Shown: positions 1 through 4,950 of the stretch, in pieces | Layout: each line of letters starts with the position of its first letter | Numbering within the stretch: the stretch's first letter is position 1 | Virus record (IMG/VR): IMGVR_UViG_3300008448_000514 | Span: 1 to 26,860 of that record | Origin: a virus | Direction: 5' to 3' (one strand) | Length of the DNA stretch: 26,860 nt | The notes under the pieces: generated by a model | Seen by the model: the letters and a program-made list of their open reading frames with translations, nothing else | Databases searched by the model: none | Told to the model about the DNA's origin: nothing | Position numbers and translations under genes: made by a program

Positions 1-6
1 AAAATA

Positions 7-235
7 TAAATCTGATCCACCAGATTTAGAATTTTAAACTCATGAGCGAGGTGAGTTTTAAATAAAAGGATAGCAGTCTTGCGACTGTTAGCTGGATTTC
101 TCCGCTAATTTACTTCGTTTATCGCAGTTGTATCTTATCGAACCGCTTCGGCTTTTCACTATCCAATTCTATCAGTGTAGCAACCAAAAACACTAATAGA
201 ATAAGAGAGTAAACGGGGGGTTAACTACTCCCCCC
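7..235 (-). ncRNA. Candidate structured RNA (multi-helix junction)
   Basis: No protein gene lies here, but almost the whole stretch can pair. Read leftward the helices are: GGGGGG/CCCCCC (230-235 with 215-220); a 13-bp hairpin with one mismatch (190-202 with 166-178); then a junction closed by GGATAG/CTATCC (159-164 with 68-73). Inside the junction are GCGGTT/AACTGC with an 11-nt loop, TTAGC-GGA/TCC-a-GCTAA with loop GAAA (88-108), and CAGTC/GACTG with loop GCAA (74-87). The last two and the closing helix abut without linkers. TTTTATTT follows the closing helix. Further hairpins lie at 36-58 (AAACTCA/TGAGTTT) and 7-28 (TAAATCTG/CAGATTTA). Both GNRA tetraloops exist only on the minus strand, which sets the orientation. 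It is not a tRNA: there is no T-loop and the core is 97 nt. No known RNA family was recognised; function unknown. Confidence 0.5.
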
Positions 236-292: not shown

Positions 293-320
293 AATCTAAT
301 CCCTATTTTTTAGTTGTCAA
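293..320 (-). promoter_or_regulatory. Candidate leftward promoter before the structured RNA
   Basis: On the minus strand TTGACA (315-320) is followed after 16 bp by TAGATT (293-298), a perfect -35 and a 4/6 match to the -10. It overlaps the end of the last leftward gene and would start transcription near 287, just upstream of the hairpin series. The -10 is weak and the region is AT-rich, so a chance match is possible. Confidence 0.3.
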
Positions 321-479: not shown

Positions 480-737
480 TTAATAAGTTGGATAAAGTTT
501 AAATTTTACAATTGTCTCACGACAATTTTTGCAAGATTTCCAATGTTGAATTATCCCATCTTCTACTTGAGTTTGATTGACATAATTCTCGCCTTTAATT
601 ATTCCTTTGCAAAGTTGAATTTGTTGTTTAATTTCAAGATTATCATCAACATAATCAACAAAAGTTAACAGTTGTTCTCGACCGTCGCAAATATAATTTT
701 TCCTTGCTTTCGGATTTGTTTCCTTTATAAAGCTCAT
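480..737 (-). CDS. Small Cys-cluster (zinc-knuckle-like) protein
   Basis: An 85-residue protein beginning MSFIKETNPKARK. An in-frame ATG exists 75 nt further upstream, but it would overlap the preceding gene. The ATG at 737 has the leader pattern seen across this unit (TTAAAACTTATG), so it was chosen. The layout KARKNYIC (C17), then C43-KGIIKGENY, then C69-x-x-C72 resembles small phage proteins in which a CxxC-G-x-I-x-x-GE-x-Y knuckle is followed by a second metal-binding pair. Here the first pair would be split by about 25 residues (18-42). Metal binding is inferred from the cysteine layout only; the target is unknown. Confidence 0.65.
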   Translation of the reverse strand: MSFIKETNPKARKNYICDGREQLLTFVDYVDDNLEIKQQIQLCKGIIKGENYVNQTQVEDGIIQHWKSCKNCRETIVKFKLYPTY

Positions 738-754
738 AAGTTTTAATTTAAATT

Positions 755-1054
755 TTAATTTTCGTAATTTCCCGATAAATGATAAGTACAAGTTTTGCAT
801 TTCGCACGGCATAGATTAAGCTCAGTGCTAGTGTTTTTAATTGCGTTCTCATTATGAATTAATTGACTTTCCATTTGCTCGACTTTGTTTTGCAAATTAT
901 CGACTTGGATTTCAAGTTCAATTATTTCATCGTTTTTAAGCTCGTTGAAGCGTGTTTTATACTTTAGCAAGTCAAAGACATATAAAGCGAATAAAAGTGC
1001 TAAGAAAGCTATTAAAGCGATTATTAATTTTTTATTATTAGGTGATATTTTCAT
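755..1054 (-). CDS. Membrane-anchored coiled-coil protein
   Basis: A 99-residue protein with a short basic N-terminus, one hydrophobic segment at about residues 10-27, and a long acidic/heptad-like helix (about 34-78, rich in E, Q, N and L). The C-terminus has a Cys cluster (CRAKCKTC). The shape is a single-pass anchor with a coiled coil, as in inner-membrane spanins, but it sits in the leftward unit far from the lysis block, and a better spanin candidate exists at 25839-26144. It starts 10 nt after the upstream stop behind a TTAAATAACTATG leader. Function unknown. Confidence 0.6.
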   Translation of the reverse strand: MKISPNNKKLIIALIAFLALLFALYVFDLLKYKTRFNELKNDEIIELEIQVDNLQNKVEQMESQLIHNENAIKNTSTELNLCRAKCKTCTYHLSGNYEN

Positions 1055-1064
1055 AGTTATTTAA

Positions 1065-1214
1065 TTAAAGTTTGTTGCGAAAAATAATCATTATTATGAT
1101 TGACATAATGCCCACTTCTAGCACAGACAACCAAAATGATAAATCAAAAAAGCTAAGAATTGCCCCGTTTATTAATCCAAGTGTAAAAAGTAATATATAT
1201 TTTTTAAGTTTCAT
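1065..1214 (-). CDS. Small membrane protein, two predicted helices
   Basis: A 49-residue protein starting MKLKKYILLFTLG and ending FRNKL. Hydrophobic stretches at about residues 6-21 and 27-44 are separated by a short polar turn. It fits the unit: its ATG lies 3 nt after the upstream stop, in a TTAAATAACTTATG context shared by several neighbours, and it ends 10 nt before the next start. A rightward reading frame overlaps here, but it lacks this context and runs against the operon, so it was rejected. Function unknown. Confidence 0.55.
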   Translation of the reverse strand: MKLKKYILLFTLGLINGAILSFFDLSFWLSVLEVGIMSIIIMIIFRNKL

Positions 1215-1217
1215 AAG

Positions 1218-1406
1218 TTATTTAATTTTAATTTTATCGCAAGAAACATCAAAATGTTTCGTGCAGAATTTGTCATAATAGTCTTGTTCTGTAGGCTCTT
1301 CACGCTTAAATTCGTGGACGCAAAGCGAAAAAAGGATTATAAAAGCAACAATTAAAATTATAATTGGAACCATTAAAATCGGATCTTCTTTAAAGTCTTT
1401 AAACAT
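1218..1406 (-). CDS. Small single-pass membrane protein
   Basis: A 62-residue protein with a strongly hydrophobic segment at about residues 10-30 and a polar, acidic C-terminus containing three cysteines in all (one at the membrane end, two near the C-terminus). It overlaps the end of the upstream gene by 8 nt (ATGTTTAA). A GGGGAGG ribosome site lies inside the upstream gene, about 4 nt before the ATG, which supports this start. This is one of the few leftward genes with a clear Shine-Dalgarno sequence. No family recognised. Confidence 0.6.
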   Translation of the reverse strand: MFKDFKEDPILMVPIIILIVAFIILFSLCVHEFKREEPTEQDYYDKFCTKHFDVSCDKIKIK

Positions 1407-1590
1407 TTTCCTCCCCTTCTTCGCCTTCGGTTATTTCAAGATATTTTTTACAAAGACCGCGCAAGTATAAAGCATGGTGTTTTTCAATTTTGGACAAATC
1501 TTTAAGATCCGTGTCGTATTTTAAAGACACGATGCAATCTTTTAAAGCTTTAAAAGTATTTTCAAAGCGACAGTATGACATATTAGCCAT
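1399..1590 (-). CDS. Conserved phage protein of the MSYCRFENT type
   Basis: A 63-residue protein whose start, MANMSYCRFENTFKALKDC, matches a small protein type found in many phages: SYCRFxNT, then LxDC, then an acidic helix with a conserved LC near the end (here LRGLCKKY). It may fold as a short helical pair. Function is unknown for the family as far as I know. The ATG overlaps the upstream stop by 8 nt (ATGGCTAA) and is preceded by GGAGG at good spacing. The C-terminus (EGEEGEENV) is acidic. Confidence 0.8.
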   Translation of the reverse strand: MANMSYCRFENTFKALKDCIVSLKYDTDLKDLSKIEKHHALYLRGLCKKYLEITEGEEGEENV

Positions 1591-1972
1591 TTTTAACCTC
1601 CGTAATTAATTCTGGATTTTCGTAAATGTTGCCAACAATTTCACAAGAAGTAAAAACGCAATTATCCAAAGCATCCCATCTGCCTTTGTTAACACGGTCA
1701 TTTAGCCATTTTACTTTCTTTAAATATGATCTTTGGTTGCCTTCATAGTAAATTTTTAAAACATGGTCATCAAAAATTTCCTTGTCGTTTTTGTCAAGTA
1801 AAGTCGTTGACTGCAATCTTGCAATAACTCTATAGTCTCTAAAAAATGGTTGATTATCCAAAACCATAAATTGGTCGCCATGTTCAATTTGATCAAGCGT
1901 AAAAATTTCAGTAAGAAAATTTGTTTTTGTTGGATTAGACCAGATATATTTAAATTTAATTTCTTTACTCAC
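1583..1972 (-). CDS. YopX-family protein
   Basis: A 129-residue protein. It begins MSKEIKFKYIW, has the central run of the family at about 52-71 (QSTTLLDKNDKEIFDDHVLKI-like, normally 'GLxDKNGKEIYEGDIV'), and ends with CEIVGNIYENPEL at 110-122, the family's hallmark C-terminus. Length is usual for the family. YopX proteins are widespread in phages and prophages; no reaction is established. The start is GTG, 8 nt inside the upstream gene (GTGAGTAA), with a GGGGGG ribosome-site-like run just before it. The central motif has drifted (FDDH for YEGD). Confidence 0.88.
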   Translation of the reverse strand: MSKEIKFKYIWSNPTKTNFLTEIFTLDQIEHGDQFMVLDNQPFFRDYRVIARLQSTTLLDKNDKEIFDDHVLKIYYEGNQRSYLKKVKWLNDRVNKGRWDALDNCVFTSCEIVGNIYENPELITEVKNG

Positions 1973-2177
1973 GATTCCCCCCTTTTTTTGTTTCGATATT
2001 ATTTTTTTCTAAAATCAAGCGTATTTGCTTTAAAGTAATAAAAAAATTATGGTTGTGTTCGTCAATGTATGACTTAGTGCCACCAATTGTTTTTCGTAAT
2101 TTAAAGGCTTCGATTACTTCAAAAGCAATTTGTCGCTCTAGTGTTGAATTTGGTTTTGTTTTTATAATTATATTCAT
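1965..2177 (-). CDS. Unknown 70-residue basic protein
   Basis: Not recognised. The sequence is moderately basic with a predicted beta start (MNIIIKTK), a helix around 13-27 and a longer helix around 46-60 (NFFITLKQIRLILEKNN), which could be a winged-helix-like small DNA-binding fold, but no signature proves this. It starts 5 nt after the preceding stop with an AT-rich leader containing TTAACTTTAA and no ribosome-site sequence. Its stop overlaps the YopX-family gene by 8 nt, suggesting coupled translation. Confidence 0.55.
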   Translation of the reverse strand: MNIIIKTKPNSTLERQIAFEVIEAFKLRKTIGGTKSYIDEHNHNFFITLKQIRLILEKNNIETKKGGNRE

Positions 2178-2182
2178 GTTAT

Positions 2183-2512
2183 TTATTGGTTAAAGTTAAT
2201 ATTTTTAATAATTTGTATTGCGTCGTAAAGCTTTCTTTGAAAATCTTCAGATTGTCCAAAAATCTTCAAAGCTTGTTGTTGGTCATTGAGTAAAATAAAA
2301 TGTTGGTCAAAGATACATTTTGTTGATTTTGTCCATTTTAATTTAAGCGTTTTTAATGTACTCCTTTTTGAATCTGTTATGTAATAGACATAAGTAATTG
2401 CTTCAGATACTCTTAAAAAACTGCTATAATGAAGTAAATGATTCAAGCTCGCCCCGCCTAATTCTTTCTTTATTTCGATTTGTATTTCTTGCAAATCTTT
2501 AATTTGTTCCAT
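2183..2512 (-). CDS. Unknown 109-residue protein
   Basis: Not recognised. The N-terminal third looks helical (IKDLQEIQIEIKKELGG), followed by an amphipathic stretch with several aromatic residues (HLLHYSSFLRVSEAITYVYYI) and a beta-rich middle with KSTKCIFDQHFILLND. No signal peptide or clear membrane segment. It starts 5 nt after the upstream stop, in a leader with TTAATATTAACT and no Shine-Dalgarno. Cytoplasmic location is inferred only from composition. Confidence 0.55.
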   Translation of the reverse strand: MEQIKDLQEIQIEIKKELGGASLNHLLHYSSFLRVSEAITYVYYITDSKRSTLKTLKLKWTKSTKCIFDQHFILLNDQQQALKIFGQSEDFQRKLYDAIQIIKNINFNQ

Positions 2513-2517
2513 GATTA

Positions 2518-2730
2518 TTAAATTTTAGTTAATATTAAATTGACCACGCCCGCCGTTAGTAAAAGCCAAAAGCCGTATTTATAAAGTTTTTGTTCGGTTT
2601 GGTCCCGCTCTTTTTGGCGTTTGTCCAACTCCCGCTTGCATTTGTTATTTTCTTTTATTTTAAGCTGGTTTTTTTGGTAATATTCCTTTTGTTTTTGTTT
2701 GATTTCTTGTTTAGTTTTTTTAATTTTCAT
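2518..2730 (-). CDS. Tail-anchored coiled-coil protein
   Basis: A 70-residue protein. Residues 1-50 are a highly charged helix rich in K, Q and E (heptad-like, probably coiled coil), and residues 53-69 are hydrophobic (WLLLTAGVVNLIL), giving a C-terminal membrane anchor with a cytoplasmic coiled coil. This topology is the reverse of the 755-1054 protein. It lies 17 nt after the upstream stop behind TTAATTTAAAAACTATG. No family recognised; it could organise other phage proteins at the membrane. Confidence 0.6.
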   Translation of the reverse strand: MKIKKTKQEIKQKQKEYYQKNQLKIKENNKCKRELDKRQKERDQTEQKLYKYGFWLLLTAGVVNLILTKI

Positions 2731-2747
2731 AGTTTTTAAATTAATTG

Positions 2748-3023
2748 TTAATTTTTGTGAAAATAATAATGCAATTCGTCCGCTCCGTGTTTTTTTAAAG
2801 CGTTGGAAATAGCTTCAAAATAAGGATTCCAAGAAGCCTGATCTTTACTAATTATAAAACGACCGCCATTTTCATTTTCAAGCAAATAAAAAGCTTCGTT
2901 AAATTGATTTCCTTCCCCTTTTTGAACTACAATATTGCGATAATGATTGATTTCTTTTTTAATGTTTATTGATTCGTCATCTCCACTTCTTGAGCTGATC
3001 TGAATTATTTTTAAAATTTCCAT
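2748..3023 (-). CDS. Unknown 91-residue protein
   Basis: Not recognised. The middle has a beta-hairpin look with EAFYLLENENGGRFIISKDQ at about residues 43-62; the C-terminal part is an amphipathic helix (PYFEAISNALKKHGADELHYYF). It is probably a soluble alpha/beta protein. It begins 11 nt after the upstream stop, with an AT-rich leader (TTAACAATTAAATAAAAA) and no ribosome-site sequence. Reading frame use and the fit into the operon support it as real. Confidence 0.55.
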   Translation of the reverse strand: MEILKIIQISSRSGDDESINIKKEINHYRNIVVQKGEGNQFNEAFYLLENENGGRFIISKDQASWNPYFEAISNALKKHGADELHYYFHKN

Positions 3024-3034
3024 AATATTTTTAT

Positions 3035-3193
3035 TTAATTGTTAATATTCCAAACATCAGCGATTACCGCTTGAAGCTTGTGAGCGTTAAACTCTAGTTT
3101 ATTTTCTAGTTTAACTTTGTAAGTTTTTGAATCATGCGATTGCTTGAACAAAAAGATTGCTATTAAAGCAATTGTTAAAAATATTTTATACAT
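3035..3193 (-). CDS. Small protein with N-terminal membrane segment
   Basis: A 52-residue protein starting MYKIFLTIALIAIFLFKQ. The hydrophobic segment (about 4-16) after a single Lys could be a signal anchor or an uncleaved signal peptide; there is no lipobox cysteine. A longer frame starting 36 nt upstream exists but would lie further inside the preceding gene. The ATG at 3193 gives the 8-nt overlap (ATGTATAA) used repeatedly in this operon, so it was chosen. The remaining 35 residues are polar. Function unknown. Confidence 0.55.
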   Translation of the reverse strand: MYKIFLTIALIAIFLFKQSHDSKTYKVKLENKLEFNAHKLQAVIADVWNINN

Positions 3194-3488
3194 TTTGGAA
3201 AGCCCCCGTTTGTTTTTTGAATGCATCATTAAATTTAAATTCAGCTCTTAATTTAATTAAAGCATTTTCGTTGCCATCTCTTGCATCAAAGAGTAAGTTA
3301 AACCAGATTTCTTTTTCTTCTTCATTACTAGCCCAATCATTATTTAAAGCATTTTCAACGGCTTTAAAAAAAGCTCCGTGCTTGATTAAAATTCCTTGGA
3401 TTCTAAATTTTTCCTCATTTATTTTTGTAATGCGATTTTCAAGAATTTTCTCGATTGCCGTTAGTTTTTGTAATTTTGTTTTTTTCAT
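3186..3488 (-). CDS. Unknown 100-residue helical protein
   Basis: Not recognised. The N-terminal 35 residues are a basic amphipathic helix (KLQKLTAIEKILENRITKI); the rest appears helical with WASNEEEKEIWFNLL and DARDGNENALIKLRAEF. No membrane segment or cysteines. It starts behind TTATTAACTTAAAATAAAACATATG, without a ribosome site, and overlaps the next gene by 8 nt. A long rightward frame covers the same bases but is the antisense shadow: it is full of Phe/Ser runs and has no supporting start context. Confidence 0.55.
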   Translation of the reverse strand: MKKTKLQKLTAIEKILENRITKINEEKFRIQGILIKHGAFFKAVENALNNDWASNEEEKEIWFNLLFDARDGNENALIKLRAEFKFNDAFKKQTGAFQNV

Positions 3489-3550
3489 ATGTTTTATTTT
3501 AAGTTAATAATTAGGCTTTGTGGTGTCGCCGTTAGTAATTATAAATCTTT

Positions 3551-3937
3551 TTAATCGTCGTAATGTTTACTTTTATTTTTGTTAAATTCCGCTTTTATGT
3601 CGTCGTGCGTAATACCATAACCGCTTAATTTAGCGACTGCGTCGCTTATGTCGTATGTATAATAACATTCATAATTCATTAATTCCCTTTCAATTATTGC
3701 CTCTTTGCCATTCTCTTTTAAATCTTGTTCAATGGCTTCTTTAACCATCAATTCATAATCTGCATCAAATTCTTTTGATTTGCCCGCTTCATGATATAAC
3801 CCGCCCCCGCGTGAAACATAGTTTATATTTTCTTTTTTCGCTTCCTCAAATTGCTTTTGAGAAAATGCAAAAAACCCGTTATATTTTGCGAATAAATGAT
3901 TAATTTTTTCTTCGGTGTATGTTGATAAAGTTTTCAT
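3551..3937 (-). CDS. Conserved-looking phage/plasmid protein
   Basis: A 128-residue acidic protein. GFFAFSQKQFEEAK (about 21-34), YVSRGGGLYHE (about 40-50) and IERELMNYECYYTYDISDA (about 81-99) recall a small protein type seen in phages and mobile elements, in which FFAFSxxQFxE is followed by a Gly-rich turn, then NxExYYTxD and a final helix. I believe it belongs there, but this is from memory and the family has no known function. It starts behind TTATTAACTTTAAAAA and is followed by a 62-nt gap before the next gene. Confidence 0.65.
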   Translation of the reverse strand: MKTLSTYTEEKINHLFAKYNGFFAFSQKQFEEAKKENINYVSRGGGLYHEAGKSKEFDADYELMVKEAIEQDLKENGKEAIIERELMNYECYYTYDISDAVAKLSGYGITHDDIKAEFNKNKSKHYDD

Positions 3938-3987
3938 AGTTTAAGTTTTTAAAGTTAATAAAGCGGGTTTTTTTTGGTGATATTTAA

Positions 3988-4362
3988 TTAAGCTTTTAAC
4001 GGCTCAACTTGATTTTTTGTAAATAAATAACACTTACAAAAACGATTAAAAGCAGTGTCTACCTCTTCGCCCGCAATATCTTTACCTTTTATTTTTATAG
4101 ATTTCGGAGACGAAAAGAAAATAAATGCTTTTTCGCCTTTTTTAACAACAAAACCCCTTTTTTTCCAATCGTTAAAAGTTGATAACTCTTCATTTTCTAA
4201 ACCATAGATTTTTTTAATAAAATGATTTAGCGGTAATGATGCCGCCAAAATATCTTTTTCGGATTCGGCTTGTCTCATTGATCTTGCTTGCGACGCTATT
4301 CTTAATAAATTTGAATAAGCTTGATCTTTTTTAAGTTCTGTTTTTAAATTTTCGTTTTTCAT
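3988..4362 (-). CDS. ArdC-like N-terminal domain, stand-alone
   Basis: A 124-residue protein matching the N-terminal single-stranded-DNA-binding domain of ArdC antirestriction proteins (older name DUF1738). The family pattern is W-x-x-x-G-x-x-V-x-KGEK followed by a beta strand; here it is WKKRGFVVKKGEKA at 66-79, and the second signature (hydrophobic strand, 'xxVFxxxQ-E') is FNRFCKCYLFTKNQVEP at about 105-121. The first 45 residues are a helical lead. The metalloprotease half of full ArdC is absent, so it would bind DNA only. In phages and plasmids this domain is associated with protecting incoming DNA; that role here is inference. Leader contains TTAATATTAACTTTAAAAAAAA. Confidence 0.7.
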   Translation of the reverse strand: MKNENLKTELKKDQAYSNLLRIASQARSMRQAESEKDILAASLPLNHFIKKIYGLENEELSTFNDWKKRGFVVKKGEKAFIFFSSPKSIKIKGKDIAGEEVDTAFNRFCKCYLFTKNQVEPLKA

Positions 4363-4375
4363 AGAGTTTTTTTTA

Positions 4376-4728
4376 AAGTTAATATTAATTATTTAGAAAT
4401 TTTTTTTTTAAAGCGATAAAAATTGAAAGGCACCAAGTCTTTGCGCGATAGCGTGAAACTCAATTAATTTTTTTTCGGTCAATCTTACTATTCCGTGATT
4501 TATAGAACTAAATTTTTTTGATTCATCTTGATTAAGTGAACTTAAATTTTTATTAATTCTTTTGTAAATAGCAAAAGAACTTTTTACGCTTTTATCGTAT
4601 CTTTTGCAAGTCGTAATTAATAAATAAGAATCATTTTCTAAATTAATTTCAGTTTTTGCGGTTTTGCCGTAGCATGTATTTTCAATAATAGTTTTCATAG
4701 TTAGTTTTTTAAGTTAATATTAATTATT
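4376..4728 (-). repeat. 18-bp direct repeat in two gene leaders
   Basis: AAGTTAATATTAATTATT (plus strand) occurs at 4376-4393 and again at 4711-4728, each just upstream of a leftward start codon. Both are followed towards the gene by an A-rich run and CTATGAAAA. Shorter forms of the same leader (TTAACTT then A-rich) precede most non-overlapping genes of this unit. It probably serves translation initiation without Shine-Dalgarno pairing, or RNA processing. Confidence 0.6.
4408..4698 (-). CDS. Unknown 96-residue protein
   Basis: Not recognised. The first half looks beta-rich with alternating residues (KTEINLENDSYLLITTCKRYD, SSFAIYKRINK); the C-terminal part is helical (RLTEKKLIEFHAIAQRLGAF). 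Probably a small soluble alpha/beta protein. It follows the first gene of the unit after 21 nt of spacer carrying the repeated TTAATATTAACTT leader, with start ACTATGAAAA and no ribosome site. Confidence 0.55.
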   Translation of the reverse strand: MKTIIENTCYGKTAKTEINLENDSYLLITTCKRYDKSVKSSFAIYKRINKNLSSLNQDESKKFSSINHGIVRLTEKKLIEFHAIAQRLGAFQFLSL

Positions 4729-4950
4729 AAAAAATTCTCTGAATTTAACAAAGTCTCTCATTTCGTTGAATATTCCAAGCGACTCAAAATAAGAGTCGCA
4801 ATTTTCTAAAAATTTATCAAGTTTTGCTTGAGTTGTTTTTACTAATTTGTTGTTGATGTCGAGAGTTATATTTTTAGATTTTTTAAAACTTTTAACTAAA
4901 ATTAAATTCTCGTTTTTATTAAATAAAATTTGTGTGTGTGCGTATTTCAT
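4720..4950 (-). CDS. First gene of leftward unit, unknown 76-residue protein
   Basis: Not recognised. It begins MKYAHTQILFNKNENLILVK, with a beta-hairpin-like start, then a helical second half (KLDKFLENCDSYFESLGIFNEMRDF). It is the promoter-proximal gene, about 53 nt after the predicted start point of the strong leftward promoter at 5010-5038. Its leader repeats TTAACTTAACTTAAAAAATAAC directly before CTATG. Being first under a host-type promoter, it is likely made early after infection; this is inference. Confidence 0.55.
   Translation of the reverse strand: MKYAHTQILFNKNENLILVKSFKKSKNITLDINNKLVKTTQAKLDKFLENCDSYFESLGIFNEMRDFVKFREFFNN

Follow-up and report, generated by a model that had tools for sequence, protein, structure and literature searches.

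The left end of the window (the whole stretch of DNA analyzed, 26,860 nt of IMG/VR record IMGVR_UViG_3300008448_000514) carries a folded RNA whose helices belong to the minus strand and which is read leftward. Judged from sequence comparison, this RNA is probably a cis-acting 5′ leader of a phage replication operon that acts as a translational switch. A regulatory RNA was among the possibilities raised in a preliminary description of this DNA, and it is supported by covarying helices, by a promoter-like site upstream and by a downstream hairpin (HB) complementary to the start region.

The folding energy of positions 1-310 was about 5 standard deviations below that of dinucleotide shuffles on both strands, with none of 100 shuffles as good, and no open reading frame of at least 60 aa was found in 1-310, in agreement with the earlier observation that the left end holds no protein gene. 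The dense multi-helix structure reported at 7-235 was recovered, with its named helices in the minus-strand RNA: the junction closed by GGATAG/CTATCC is present as P2 (159-164 with 68-73), as are the GAAA arm (88-108) and the GCAA arm (74-87), followed by TTTTATTT. The reported extent contains these helices but is too short, as the feature runs from near a promoter-like site at about 293-320 to beyond base 1. Base 1 of the window truncates the leader ahead of the second hairpin, HB, and the start codon; the missing part is supplied by L004, a longer contig of the same phage that matches the window at 100% identity across 13,310 nt. From 5′ to 3′ on the minus strand, the order is promoter-like site, P-1, P0 5′ strand, P1, P2 5′ strand (overlapping the P0 3′ strand) and P3, followed by the optional P4/P5, the P2 3′ strand, HA, HB, a linker starting GCCA and the start codon (Table 1). 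The folded domain ends about 100 nt or more ahead of the start codon.

Table 1. Features of the leader and its surroundings (window coordinates unless a contig is named) and the HA/HB/start sequence trios.
Feature	Position	Strand	Remark
Upstream genes	480..4950	-	mostly of unknown function; leader's direction
Promoter-like site TTGACA-16-TAGATT	293..320	-	ahead of leader
P-1 hairpin GGGGGG/CCCCCC	215..235	-	stem sequence varies by family, pairing retained
P0 5′ strand TTACT	208..212	-	pairs with 156-160; rivals P2 for the same segment
P0 3′ strand AGTGA	156..160	-	shares two bases with P2 5′ strand
P1 5′ strand	191..202	-	double compensatory changes in 7/8 first pairs, between families
P1 3′ strand	166..177	-	covariation
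P2 5′ strand GGATAG, closing helix	159..164	-	100% paired; compensatory changes in 3/6 pairs
P2 3′ strand CTATCC	68..73	-	covariation
P3 5′ strand GCGGTT, loop CGATAAGATAC	141..146	-	
P3 3′ strand AACTGC	124..129	-	
P4 arm, GAAA loop	88..108	-	optional insert
P5 arm CAGTC-GCAA-GACTG	74..87	-	optional insert; L167 has GTAA loop
Extra hairpin AAACTCA/TGAGTTT	36..58	-	some F1 leaders only
HA hairpin AAATCTG[GTGGAT]CAGATTT	8..27	-	loop complementary to HB loop beyond window
Leader cut by window edge	1..7	-	continues in L004
HB hairpin GGTCAAG[AATCCACG]CTTGACC	L004:13315-13336		outside window
Start region GCGTGGAG	L004:13351-13358		complementary to HB loop; ATG at L004:13361
HA/HB/start trio			GTGGAT/ATCCAC/GCGTGGAG
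HA/HB/start trio			GTGGAG/CTCCAC/GCGTGGAG
HA/HB/start trio			GTGCG/CGCAC/GTGCGG
HA/HB/start trio			GTGCG/CGCAC/CGTGCGG
HA/HB/start trio			GGGGGG/CCCCCC/GGGG
HA/HB/start trio			CTTGCTC/GAGCAAG/TTGCT

The same architecture was found in about 30 related contigs, which form four sequence families (F1-F4) and share the layout P-1, P0, P1, P2, P3, HA, HB and start codon, with dnaB about 2-3 kb downstream in the same direction (G006, G007 and G008, the distance in G007 being read across a contig end). An exact 20-base core pattern matched eight IMG/VR contigs, and a downstream start-region pattern matched six further contigs with a folded core of different sequence; because the start-region pattern did not contain the core, the co-occurrence of the two is informative. 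The DnaB-type helicase protein of L001, used as a query, led to more loci with the leader upstream, and inspection of gaps yielded the diverged leaders L131, L132 and L157 (F3) and L156 (F4), F4 consisting of two close relatives only. Several candidates were set aside: a 15-base pattern matched mostly unrelated contigs, L159 and L160 carry the P-1 loop pattern but are unrelated, and a match to model R2 in G084 (L193), on the strand opposite a protein gene, was taken as chance. In two members (L001:2661-2870 and L007:1044-1190), the P-1 loop has ATCCACG, a stretch that also occurs within the HB loop elsewhere in the family.

Covariation was assessed in fixed register on the 12 distinct sequences of alignment A6, with the partner strand slid as the control. 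P1 and P2 together were paired in 99.4% of cells compared to 32-54% when slid, with a covariation of 0.715 compared to at most 0.132, and double changes were present in 10 of 14 pairs; the compensatory changes on which the preliminary description had staked its structure do occur across related contigs. P1 with P0, also in fixed register, gave 98.0% pairing and a covariation of 0.556 (at most 0.161 when slid), the share of P0 in this support being one compensatory column plus conserved pairs. Over all helices, standard pairs occupied 528 of 530 cells, a figure inflated by the hand choice of registers, and the occurrence of 27 G-U versus one A-C pair is suggestive of RNA on the minus strand. 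These alignments show that the predicted leader structure has been kept through near-complete turnover of stem sequences.

The two GNRA arms that were stressed initially are not part of this conserved structure, and that emphasis was misplaced. P4/P5 is an optional 36-nt insert (window 74-108) with almost no covariation, and the GAAA loop of P4 itself varies (ATAAAA in L002). Since most F1 leaders and a single F2 leader (L167) carry the insert, and L092, all other F2 leaders and the F3 and F4 leaders lack it, it appears to move as a mobile module exchanged between otherwise similar leaders, and its apparent swapping is evidence of modular recombination in these leaders. The constant core, as aligned here, consists of P0/P1/P2/P3 together with the HA and HB hairpins, partly beyond the window.

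Downstream of the folded domain, the loop of HA (6-7 nt in most leaders, longer in F3) was complementary to the loop of HB in all six loop-sequence types. This complementarity survives even the swaps from GTGGAG/CTCCAC to GGGGGG/CCCCCC and to CTTGCTC/GAGCAAG, and in a duplex matrix the HB loop of its own type was the best partner for each HA loop. Complementarity also links the HB loop to the bases directly ahead of the start codon, clearly in F1-F3 and weakly in F4. In the window's phage, the competing HA-HB and HB-start duplexes were predicted at -8.8 and -8.8 kcal/mol; both were strong throughout F1-F3, while the HB-start duplex of F4 was weak (-5.3 kcal/mol, shuffle p 0.42; -4.0 kcal/mol, p 0.65 in L174). 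Outside these weak F4 cases, single short loops gave modest shuffle p values (0.0025-0.21), so the case for the trio rests on covariation between families. A generic HA-HB-start descriptor gave 282 matches in 3.18 Mb, mostly AT-rich chance, and was excluded as evidence.

Start-site sequestration calls for a loop upstream to pair with the ribosome-binding site, and complementarity of this kind is conserved in F1-F3 and weak in F4. In L142 and L137, the start segment GCGTGGAG is changed to CGTGCGG, so that the Shine-Dalgarno motif gives way to GCGG while complementarity to HB is retained; because such start regions lack a good Shine-Dalgarno, what is blocked would be the site and not the motif. 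The HB-start layout is that of an H-type pseudoknot; in F1 and F2, its first loop is short and its third loop A-rich. An ATG also stands directly 5′ of HB in F1-F3 (L004:13311-13334 and equivalents; ACG in F4), opening short ORFs such as MGSRIHA* and MTLSLHA*, and is in frame with the first gene in L146, L140 and L131. It could mark a short upstream ORF on which a translating ribosome would open HB, or be due to chance.

In the switch that we propose, transcription would run leftward from the promoter-like site at about 320-293, through the leader and into the replication operon. The pairings of HB with HA and with the ribosome site would be mutually exclusive: HB kissing HA would leave the ribosome site open, and HB paired to the ribosome site would form the H-type pseudoknot with its A-rich linker and close it. 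Competition between P0 and P2 may be the sensing part, biasing which state wins in response to a protein, a metabolite or an infection state. The further proposal that P0/P2 strand exchange and HA/HB/start competition together make up a sensor RNA of a new class, carried by phages to gauge the state of the infected cell and set the timing of the replication operon, is possible but distinctly more tentative.

P0 and P2 could also coexist as a pseudoknot rather than switch, which would favor a constitutive element that only stabilizes the mRNA 5′ end or fixes the level of translation, its alternative pairings being no switch. No candidate ligand or protein emerged from the analysis, and HA-HB kissing is clearly stronger than start pairing in F3 and F4, as such an element would allow. 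However, two separate conserved, mutually exclusive pairing sets would be unusual in a static fold, and we consider a constitutive role unlikely.

The surroundings of the leader are those of an operon head. The candidate leftward promoter noted earlier just upstream was recovered as a promoter-like TTGACA/TAGATT site at 320-293, and TTGACa...TAnATT-like sequences precede most homologous leaders. Genes on both sides run in the leader's direction; among the small upstream genes is one for a protein with a YopX domain match (window 1583-1972). The first gene after the leader falls into 14 unrelated clusters among 26 leaders, so it is the leader, and not the first gene, that is conserved. This speaks against the first gene's product controlling its own synthesis, and the one conserved first gene expected of a phage repressor site that works autogenously, as for T4 gene 32, was not found among these 26 leaders. 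The portal protein shares 31% identity with its best relative, the portal of Pelagibacter phage HTVC010P; HTVC010P searched with model R2 gave no significant match. F3 leaders were found on phage-like contigs in two MAGs of one bacterial family, one being 'Proteobacteria bacterium WB5_3A_111'. On the strength of the portal protein and these two MAGs, a proteobacterial host is likely, but not established.

A leader that opens a long operon close behind a promoter-like site, does not depend on which gene comes first and has its conserved fold about 100 nt or more before the start codon could instead be a processive antitermination element. The put RNAs of phage HK022 bind RNA polymerase as they emerge and cause antitermination, and a folded RNA of this kind would let the replication operon be read through terminators. 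This would leave the HB-start pairing and the HB-HA covariation unexplained, and the leader had no match to the antitermination RNAs in Rfam. Such a role seems improbable, to about the same degree as a constitutive one.

Kissing between molecules, as in the pRNA rings of phi29, would be expected if the RNA were instead a trans-acting small RNA or a packaging RNA. The fold is compact, kissing loops also function intermolecularly, and a weak terminator-like site lies at 87-74, but that site sits in the optional insert missing from most families, and the leader continues straight into a coding start with which HB pairs. It heads the replication operon and is not at the terminase, which leaves the earlier suggestion of a packaging-related RNA unsupported and makes this role very unlikely. 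A self-cleaving ribozyme or a DNA-level element (single-strand origin hairpins) is the least probable reading of all despite the many helices and the nearby replication operon, as the excess of G-U over A-C pairs points to RNA and no Rfam ribozyme family matches across the four leader families, so that the unrecognized ribozyme suggested at the outset finds no support.

The whole window searched against Rfam release 15 gave no family at the gathering threshold, in line with the first impression of an RNA that could not be named, and positions 1-700 with the F2, F3 and F4 leaders gave only chance matches far under threshold, including recurrent BTnc231 matches (16-23 bits compared to 80.4) that were set aside. 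ARAGORN found no tRNA or tmRNA, consistent with the earlier judgment that the structure is unlike tRNA. Nucleotide searches of 50,697 phage records with the window leader and the F2, F3 and F4 leaders found nothing, and the limited literature turned up contained no description of the leader. The element therefore appears to be undescribed; it covaries strongly, occurs in freshwater and other metagenomic phage contigs and heads the replication operon of phages without a close relative in those deposited records. If the proposed switch is true, it would be a stand-alone RNA device that times phage replication whatever the first gene under its control, and the leader offers a small, testable set of base pairs.

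Among known systems, the leader of T4 gene 32 contains a pseudoknot through which translation is controlled autogenously by the product of the first gene. The phage leader would likewise have a pseudoknot ahead of replication genes, but its first gene varies. In the repZ leader of plasmid ColIb-P9 (IncI-alpha), translation of a replication gene is governed by a pseudoknot that a loop forms with a distant sequence near the start; this pseudoknot has an activating role, and is opposed by an antisense RNA together with a leader peptide. Start pairing in the phage leader should instead block, and is without a known antisense RNA. PreQ1-I riboswitches are H-type pseudoknots whose third loop is A-rich and whose second helix includes the Shine-Dalgarno region (PMC11625349). 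The HB-start layout of F1 and F2 resembles them, although these riboswitches are much smaller and without an HA competitor, no queuosine gene context was seen at the phage leader, and the preQ1 models in Rfam did not match leader stretches including HB. The structured RNAs manA and wcaG were found by covariation in phage genomes from marine metagenomes and cyanophages, manA in 5′ UTRs and wcaG apparently regulating genes (PMC2864571); in contrast to the phage leader, they are attached to metabolic genes, and both are Rfam families that do not match it. The leader appears to form a new family within a known kind of RNA, the translational leader, with an unusual three-way competition between loops.
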